Assembly (NCBI RefSeq): GCF_026151205.1
Contig: NC_087080.1
Span: 6,861,096 to 6,925,095 of the forward strand
Reading direction: 5' to 3'
Length of the DNA: 64,000 nucleotides
DNA from: Bolinopsis microptera
Lineage: Eukaryota > Ctenophora > Tentaculata > Lobata > Bolinopsidae
Part shown: in pieces, positions 29,501 through 32,500 of the stretch
Position numbering within the stretch: position 1 is the stretch's first letter
How the letters are laid out: each line of letters opens with the position of its first letter
Program-made: the position numbers and the translations under genes
Notes under the pieces: generated by a model
Databases searched by the model: none
What the model saw: only the letters and a program-made list of their open reading frames with translations
Told to the model about the DNA's origin: nothing

Positions 29501-32500
29501 ACACTGGACAGCTATGAACGAAAATTTTATTCAATAGCTCCTCCAGAAAATACATTGCGTTTAGGATAAAACTGGCATCATAATTCCTAAATCATGAGCA
29601 AGATTCATCGTTGTGTCGCCTTCATGACGATAAATTTCAAATATTATTCCGGCCAAACATTAGCTATTCCTTCCATAATCTCCCTAATTTATCCTCCAAA
29701 TTTTCAATTTAGTCTTACTAATTTGACGCTGAATCCTTGACCGTAGTCACAATAACCATCCCGAGCATCTATTTCCGACTAATTATATTCCTTTAATTTT
29801 CCAATTAACTAATTACACCATAATTTCAGATAAGTGGGTCTACATCGTGGTAGTGTTGGTCATCATGTTTGCGATTGGTCTTGGTATCGCGCTCTTCTGT
29901 TACATCAAACGGCACAACCAGGTCAAGAAAATAATAAAAACGCAGTACAACCCGCTTTATCCCCTCATGTAAGTCTTGTTTAACATTTTGTTTAAATTTC
30001 TCGGTTCTTCAGAACCTGCAATATTCGGACGTTTATTCCGTTTAACTGTACATTATCAGTCGACGGAGATGTCCTTTACGGGATTGGTATCTGGAGCCTG
30101 CAACTCGACAAAAAAAAGGTCGCCTGTCTAGAAAAGCTCCAGAAATTTAGTCGCTACATTTCATTCCCGAACTATTATCCTCACGTTGAAAGTCTAGACT
30201 ATACTTGACACGTACCTCTAAACATGGTCCACTGTATCACCCCCCTCTCCCTCTCTCTCTCCCTCTCTCTCTCTCTCTCCCCCTCTCTCTCTCCGTACCC
30301 CATTACATCTGGCCAAGCTTTGTGATTAAATACTCATTATAGTGGCTCGATATTCTATATCGTATCAATAGTTCACTTATCCTGGTGTTTATTTGCGGGC
30401 ATCTTATTGGCTTGTTGGGAGTCACGTGGTTTGAAGCTCGTCTCTGATTGGTCGGTAAACTGTCGGAGAATTTACTGATTGGTTGTCCGTGTCCGCCAGT
30501 CTTTATGCATTTGATTGCGGTTAATGTTACTGGATGATTAAACGTAGGCTGATGTTTTTAACACAGATTGAGTTGGCATGATAGTTTATAATGGTAGTTA
30601 CACGCACTCCATGACCATACAGTAAACGTCTTGTAGCCTTGACTTAATCGTGTAATCCGGAAAACTTCTTAAAGTACAATGTTAAAGTGCAGACGTCCGT
30701 AAGGATTTGAAAAGCCACTGCTGCAATAATATTATCTTCTTCCAATCATAAATAAAAATATGTAGAGACATTCCTGATTCCTTAAATCTTTTCCATCCTG
30801 TAGTACAGAGAGGAGAAGTACGTCTCCATATCTATACCTTTACAGCATTATATACTTTAGTCCTAGTTTAGTAATGGAAGAGGCGAACGTGGGTTTTGAG
30901 GTGTTCCACAAAGCTTCTGATGAGAAAGAATCCGATGCTCCGTCCCTTAAATCCCTGAAAACTATTTGATCGCTTCCCCCTCATAACCTCTCATAACGTA
31001 TGACGAGACTATATAAATGCTAACACAGAAGTACAGAGAGATAAAACACAATCAGTTTACGTCACTTGACACTTCCATAAAACAGTGATCGTCTGTGAGG
31101 AATATCTTAGACACTCAAGAGCGCTATCTTTGATATCTGATACGATTTAATCCACAGAGAGAACAATTACCACTCAAAATGTTTCCTTGTGTTCGAGAAA
31201 GTGCCCGGTTTCCCCTCTCAGCACGCGTTGTCGGGTGAATCTCTATCAGTTCGTGTCTCTATCACTTCCCCTCTTCTTCCTACTTGTACGGGAAACCCTG
31301 TCACACATTTTCTTGATTCATTACTACGCGGACACGCTAGCAGGCCAGCTTTAAAGGGAATCACCCACAGTCCACACTAATATTATAGGTACCCTGTATT
31401 GTGTTGGCCTTTCATACACTGGCCATCTTATCCCTCCTTCTCTTTTTCTGACTTCCGCTTCCGGGCCCTCCTCCTTTTTCCTGACACTATCATGTTACCC
31501 GTGCATTTTTCTTTGCCCCTGGCCCTCAGGCTTAACTAACTTGCCGGGTAACTCCTGAGAGTATTCTCAAGCTGAACCAATCTCTAACCAGTACTTAAAT
31601 AGCCTCTGATGAGTCTAACTGGTCTTAAAGCCAGTTTCTAGCCAGTTGCTAACCTTTTGTAACTTCAGGAGAAGTGTAGTTCCGGACCAGTGGGAGATAA
31701 ACCCAGACGATATGAAACTGAGCACCCTGCTGGGTGAGGGGGCCTTTGGTCGGGTCATGAAGGGGGCCATGCTCAAAGATGGCAAGTCGACCATGGTGGC
31801 TGTTAAAATGCTCAAAGGTGAGAGCTCTTTTATTGAGCTGACGCGGCTAGTGTGTGGAAGTTTACTGTTCTGCATTTTTGTTGAAGTCGTAGCAATGTGT
31901 AACACAGTGATTTCATATCTTTGCGGATTTTAGATCATTGATGAGCCAGCTTTTCTCTGTTATATACTGGTATCCCGGCGAAGTTGATGGTTGGCTTGTA
32001 GCCAAGTTGGCTTTCCGACAACGAGCGGCACGTTTACAAGCAATAAAATGATTTGTTTCAGAAGAGTCGAATAGCGAGCAGGAGGCTGAGGCACTTTGGA
32101 AGGAGATTGCATTAATGAAGAAGGTAAATAATAAGTACATCCTGGTGTGTGGAACTATAAAACCAGTTTTTAAAGTTAGATTCAATCAGTGTCAAGCTTA
32201 CTAATTATTGTGTGTGTGTCGGGAGCGTGAGAGAACGTTCTCAAACTTTACGCGGGCTCCTGATACACAAATACACCTAACGATTCTAAACAATTCGTTT
32301 GTTTTTTTTTCTCACAATATAAGGCTTCTCAGCTTCTCAAGTAAATGAAAATGTTTACTTTTTACTCTTATTTAACTAAAATACTGCGTAAAACCCTGTC
32401 AATTCCCGATTTCTCTTATTTTCAATCGTTAACAAACTTTTGTAACAAACTTCCTGGTTTGACCCTTTGCAATTTCAGGTCGGGTCACACCCCTACATAG

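Follow-up and report, generated by a model that had tools for sequence, protein, structure and literature searches.

Background

The closest described counterpart of the arrangement considered here is TrkB.T1, a truncated form of the NTRK2 product. In this form, exon 16 is used instead of the kinase exons and carries a stop codon of its own, the encoded tail is 11 residues long and identical in rodents, human, and chicken, and transcripts and several poly(A) sites belonging to that exon are described (PMC8934854). Kinase-less receptors are described from other mechanisms as well. DAF-2B of C. elegans, which sequesters ligand, is reported to be made by donor read-through (PMC7041946), receptor tyrosine kinases (RTKs) truncated at intronic poly(A) sites are credited to Vorlova 2011 by the papers citing that work (PMC3826338, PMC7041946), and a VEGFR2 decoy is reported to arise through an intronic poly(A) site (PMC3826338). 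The decoy IL18R1-Short is described as having no intracellular signalling domain, with a LINE2 element giving its poly(A) signal (PMC13232192).

The window, a stretch of 64,000 nucleotides from the ctenophore Bolinopsis microptera, contains a candidate alternative terminal exon of an RTK gene at 30846..30969 on the plus strand. Its frame would add a tail of 41 residues, counting the split codon (AT+C...), and ends in a TGA at 30967-30969. The preliminary description of this DNA had pointed to truncated forms of other RTKs as a precedent, and the comparison is sound, as TrkB.T1 does arise by a terminal exon (PMC8934854). Like TrkB.T1, the candidate would be a terminal exon after the membrane exon, with a short unique tail and its own stop. 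Unlike TrkB.T1, for which there are transcripts, poly(A) sites, and a conserved tail, it is known here from sequence alone. Homology between the two tails was considered and rejected: their F-x-x-F-H-K likeness (24 points) is at chance level, being reached by 218 of 20000 shuffles and 6 of 606 window segments.

As with DAF-2B and the RTKs truncated by intronic poly(A) use, which act by sequestering ligand, one gene would give rise to both the signalling receptor and a kinase-less form. However, DAF-2B and the VEGFR2 decoy are described without a membrane segment, whereas the candidate retains one and would be spliced in through a new acceptor. IL18R1-Short is not an RTK, but it too is a receptor without its signalling domain that results from an intronic 3' end. 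In that case a transposable element supplies the 3' end; at the locus described here, a repeat lies upstream of the acceptor.

The host receptor gene

A receptor tyrosine kinase gene on the plus strand fills most of the window, which has a GC content of 37.6%. The tyrosine kinase catalytic domain is present, with the joined kinase exons matching PF07714 in Pfam (E 4e-92) and containing the HRDLAARN and DFG motifs. Among the matches listed from the PDB (60 of 2621), an entry titled EGFR is followed by RET, FGFR1-3, and FLT3 chains. Ig-like exons have Pfam support from the 1892 frame on, and by eye from ~1.7 kb, with every Ig match, taken singly, under the Pfam cut-offs. FN3-like exons lie at ~23.6-25.2 kb, and a hand-joined FN3 peptide matches fn3 with an E of 7e-6 and 26.6 bits (Pfam cut-off 25). 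An ectodomain and a single membrane segment are thus carried in phase on one gene, part of the ectodomain exons having been joined. By its predicted domains, the host gene is a multi-Ig/FN3 receptor tyrosine kinase, and it is probably a growth-factor-type receptor of the comb jelly.

The membrane exon (29830..29968) is entered in phase 1 and left in phase 2, with GTAAGT from 29969, and is in phase with both the kinase exon and the probable preceding exon. The latter (25049..25233), recognised by its translation and a GCA|GTAAGT donor, is left in phase 1; its donor scores 2.4, there is a coding-like segment at 25047-25217, and its translation resembles, by reading rather than by Pfam, the end of an FN3 domain. 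When a composite query was used, its residues 1-29 had no other genomic match at E <= 0.001, and one weak match elsewhere at that threshold begins at residue 30. In the modelled full-length receptor, the first kinase-side exon is 31669..31817, which joins 29968 in frame and runs into the kinase. It is followed by modelled kinase exons at 32062-32123, 32479-32577, and 33069-33174, a modelled kinase insert exon at 35138-35256, the last kinase exons at 46371-46451, 55942-56156, and 56269-about 56509, and a C-terminal tail exon at 56677..57021, with an approximate start read from the sequence and the end ...HPAETVL*, all on the plus strand. No membrane exon was seen by eye, among frames of at least 22 residues, in the 1.5 kb upstream of the 43% kinase relative (locus L006).

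A run of RRRR is present in the extracellular exon at 24686-24900, between the FN3-like parts. The insulin receptor has an RKRR cleavage site. The run resembles a site for furin-type cleavage, and the receptor may accordingly be processed into two chains.

Anatomy of the candidate exon

An acceptor opening a phase-2 frame after the membrane exon had been proposed, and this was confirmed at 30846 (CTTTACAG|CATTAT). A generic metazoan matrix gives it 4.0 bits, within the 1.8-5.8 range of the nine modelled real acceptors of the gene; the splice matrices used are general ones, not fitted to B. microptera. Two other in-frame acceptors, 30861 (1.4) and 30867 (1.5), are weaker. At the level of sequence, the candidate reads in phase from the membrane exon and supplies an in-frame stop, an anatomy that would permit the proposed terminal exon and kinase-less isoform.

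The two GT sites inside 30846..30969 that would keep the kinase in frame both score -11. Out of phase, 30888 scores 0.8 and, past the stop, 31234 scores 2.7. Two donors modelled as real, 32577 and 33174, themselves reach no more than about 0, so this matrix does not exclude donors scoring near 0, but it does exclude those at -11. The exon would thus have to be terminal or stop-carrying, and an in-frame cassette exon leading into the kinase was rejected on the same scores.

Between the stop and the kinase exon (30970-31668), where 12 hexamers were sought, AATAAA and ATTAAA are absent. The sole variant poly(A)-like hexamers before the kinase exon, on the plus strand, are TATAAA (31012), GATAAA (31040), and CATAAA (31076), spanning 31012..31081. 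The 1.6 kb past the stop of the gene has both canonical forms, the first ATTAAA being at 57423 and the first AATAAA at 57509.

Chance expectation for an acceptor and frame

In 0.6 Mb of second-order Markov sequence, 37 acceptors scoring 4.0 or more were paired with a phase-2 frame of 41 codons or longer (0.10 per 1700 nt); for 3 Mb of third-order Markov sequence the count was 305 (0.17 per 1700 nt). The intron itself has near-equal rivals at 30013 (3.6; 65 codons), 30804 (3.8; 55 codons, in the candidate's own frame), and 31222 (3.4; 44 codons), and weaker pairs at 31389 (2.4; 50 codons) and 31158 (1.9; 74 codons). Given the simulated expectation and these similar pairs, the exon anatomy alone carries little weight.

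Adding codon usage of at least 5.8 bits, the score of the tail, leaves none of the 37 simulated pairs and one of the 305 (0.012 per 37 kb). In the window, with the candidate, the modelled and probable exons, and low-complexity stretches masked beforehand, none of 301 plus-strand and 240 minus-strand acceptors scoring at least 1.8 has the acceptor, frame, and codon scores jointly; acceptor 4.0 and 41 codons alone are reached by 5 and 4 of these, respectively. These joint figures are post hoc, since the strict thresholds were taken from the candidate itself once it had been chosen. At an acceptor score of 3, 36 codons, and 4 bits, three plus-strand acceptors pass and none on the minus strand: 25049 (the probable exon), 30804 (the candidate's frame), and 55917 (the frame of kinase exon 55942). 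When the limits are relaxed furthest (acceptor 1.8, 30 codons, 4 bits), 4 of the 301 and 3 of the 240 pass, the additions being 7214 (plus strand) and, in reverse coordinates, 388, 38873, and 51418 (minus strand).

Codon usage of the tail

Using codon usage trained on 1000 codons of the same gene, the tail scores +5.8 bits. This is reached by 512 of 9867 stop-free windows (5.2%), and the resulting 95th percentile is conservative because unmodelled exons are still in this background. The 24 left-out real exon blocks range from -4.1 to 13.1 bits, with 8 of them below zero and 10 equal to or above the tail. When trained on 1017 codons from four other kinase loci, the tail scores +8.2 bits, a value reached by 1.3% of 7818 stop-free non-exon windows as against 10 of the 24 real exon blocks. 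The codon usage of the tail therefore beats about 95-99% of the stop-free windows outside modelled exons, and it is more telling than the anatomy of acceptor and frame.

The signal is uneven along the exon. The coding-like core, 30874..30957 on the plus strand, begins at an ATG and covers 28 residues with 13.2 bits. Before this ATG (30874), counting from the 30846 acceptor, nine whole codons together give about -4.8 bits. The preliminary description read 40 coding-like codons and a stop; the open frame has 41 residues to the TGA, and the codons before the ATG score as non-coding. A minus-strand segment of the same intron (31431-31532), taken to be non-coding, has 12.8 bits against the 13.2 of the core, and the CT repeat and other low-complexity stretches outscore the core. 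At E up to 10, the one genomic match of the tail peptide is its own locus, and Pfam gives none at E up to 1, so composition alone speaks for coding.

Elsewhere in the window, long low-complexity frames at 14954-15373 and 51300-51700 (TTQSATTT-like, minus strand; VRVRVR/GLGLGL) also score as coding, probably because of their repeats.

Repeats in and around the intron

A (CT)n-rich simple repeat at 30237..30297 (plus strand) in the intron is common to many genomic places. A similarity search of the genome also identified a dispersed repeat at 30640..30836 on the plus strand, to which about 46 of 98 non-self matches belong among the matches listed (40 of 70 candidates scored). Its relatives lie on several contigs and all but one of the matches stop at or before 30825, so that the homology ends about 20 nt 5' of the 30846 acceptor.

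At the five places inspected, the part at 30777-30825 recurs inverted, with the inner ends facing and 208-570 nt apart; no inverted partner is present within the intron. The repeat had been considered MITE-like with a terminal inverted repeat, and this name was withdrawn because the inverted parts face inward. The sequence after 30825 could be the remains of the interior of a repeat copy. However, the 124 bases of the candidate have no genome match but themselves, in a search that skips very common words, and with the peptide likewise matching only itself, the tail as a recognisable piece of a transposon is unsupported. No structured RNA in the window matches Rfam at gathering scores, and the DNA fold of 30620-30850 is no better than that of shuffles (z -0.11).

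Alternative explanations

The reading that we favour, with confidence that is evenly balanced, is that 30846-30969 is a fortuitous open frame behind a moderately good cryptic acceptor and not a maintained isoform. The gene would make an ordinary full-length receptor tyrosine kinase via the 29968-31669 join, and the 30846 acceptor may serve now and then as splicing noise. The DNA itself shows the acceptor, its phase fit, the frame, and an in-frame route to the full-length receptor, and it shows that neither AATAAA nor ATTAAA follows the stop before the kinase exon begins; we infer that the full-length splice is the one actually used and that the tail is functionless. The chance rate of such pairs, the rivals in the same intron, the non-coding first codons, and the lack of a canonical poly(A) signal would all count for a fortuitous frame, as would the minus-strand segment that nearly equals the core score and the CT repeat that exceeds it. 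The residues IIIYF close inside the membrane appear unusual for a cytoplasmic tail and can be added to these. The codon usage, reached by 1.3% of windows, and the joint score, reached by none of 541 window acceptors, would count against it, and the phase-keeping donors at -11 are entered on the same side.

A used alternative terminal exon, the reading of the preliminary description, is one that we consider possible and hold tentatively. The membrane exon would be spliced to 30846 (or 30861/30867), the message would end near 31030-31100 through a variant poly(A) signal, and the product would consist of the Ig/FN3 ectodomain, the membrane segment, a juxtamembrane stretch containing NPLY, and a tail of 34-41 residues. 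By analogy with TrkB.T1, this kinase-less receptor would bind ligand or pair with the full-length receptor, damping its signal. Beyond the 29968-30846 splice we infer every step, and decoy action is a further step of this kind. An acceptor within the modelled range, the fitting phase and three in-frame acceptors, codon usage at about the 95th to 99th percentile of stop-free windows, the lack of a fair donor carrying the exon on to the kinase in frame, and the precedent at the equivalent position in TrkB.T1, as described (PMC8934854), are all consistent with such use. Yet the poly(A) hexamers are variants only, the codons next to the acceptor look non-coding, and searches for the tail elsewhere in the genome (E up to 10) and in Pfam (E up to 1) were negative. 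The codon score separates poorly, with 8 of the 24 real blocks below zero, and the candidate is a post hoc choice among many introns.

The start of the coding-like score at ATG 30874 raises the question of whether the core (30874-30957) belongs to another product, which we consider improbable. This would be a secreted form that skips the membrane exon by joining 25233 to an acceptor at 30872 in phase 1, or an independent frame from ATG 30874. Since the probable preceding exon ends in phase 1, the 25233-30872 join keeps the reading frame of the core, and the ATG has the context GTAATGG, with a purine at -3 and G at +4. However, the 30872 acceptor scores -0.7, under all nine modelled real ones (1.8-5.8), and a free-standing protein of 31 residues has no other support. 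A coding-like core without a coding-like start would also suit a decayed or repeat-altered former exon, beside or around which the repeat was inserted, changing or supplying splice signals, or else the unaligned interior of a diverged repeat copy. The repeat homology adjoins the candidate and the corresponding end faces inward in the other copies, so the sequence from 30826 onwards could be left from such an interior. This is the least probable of the explanations and would be a surprising outcome: the 124 bases are unmatched elsewhere in the genome (very common words skipped), and beyond the repeat, the other phase-2 frames of the intron with 30 codons or more score below zero.

Implications for ctenophore receptors

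No report of ctenophore RTK isoforms, or of truncated receptors made by splicing, was found among titles and abstract openings in the open literature. Ctenophores have been proposed as the sister lineage of all other animals. We judge it unlikely that a ctenophore makes a membrane-anchored, kinase-less form of an Ig/FN3 RTK by an alternative terminal exon, with the consequence that spliced receptor decoys either date back to the beginnings of animal RTK signalling or evolved independently in ctenophores. If real, the candidate would join the known TrkB.T1-like kind of truncated RTK, and RTK self-antagonism by alternative 3' ends would extend to ctenophores if the exon is used. If the exon is not used, the locus is a caution that an acceptor with an in-phase frame is common in introns, where only transcripts or conservation can decide. 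Iso-Seq and RNA-seq of B. microptera have been made, according to PMC10232365, and a chromosome assembly of M. leidyi is published, according to PMC11797021.

Other features of the window

Near-identical tandem segments, 57413-59995 and 60448-63085, lie directly 3' of the last exon of the receptor gene, with 99.4% identity over 1250 nt and 99.7% over 1342 nt. These represent either a recent duplication in tandem or, as an artefact of the assembly, haplotypes that were left unmerged. Directly 5' of an Ig exon (frame 5822-5969), a 549-nt unit is present twice at 99.3% in 4716-5812, with shorter inner repeats. The intron between 35138-35256 and 46371-46451 contains a long palindrome of 737 nt (36187-36921), which is 96% identical to its own reverse complement.
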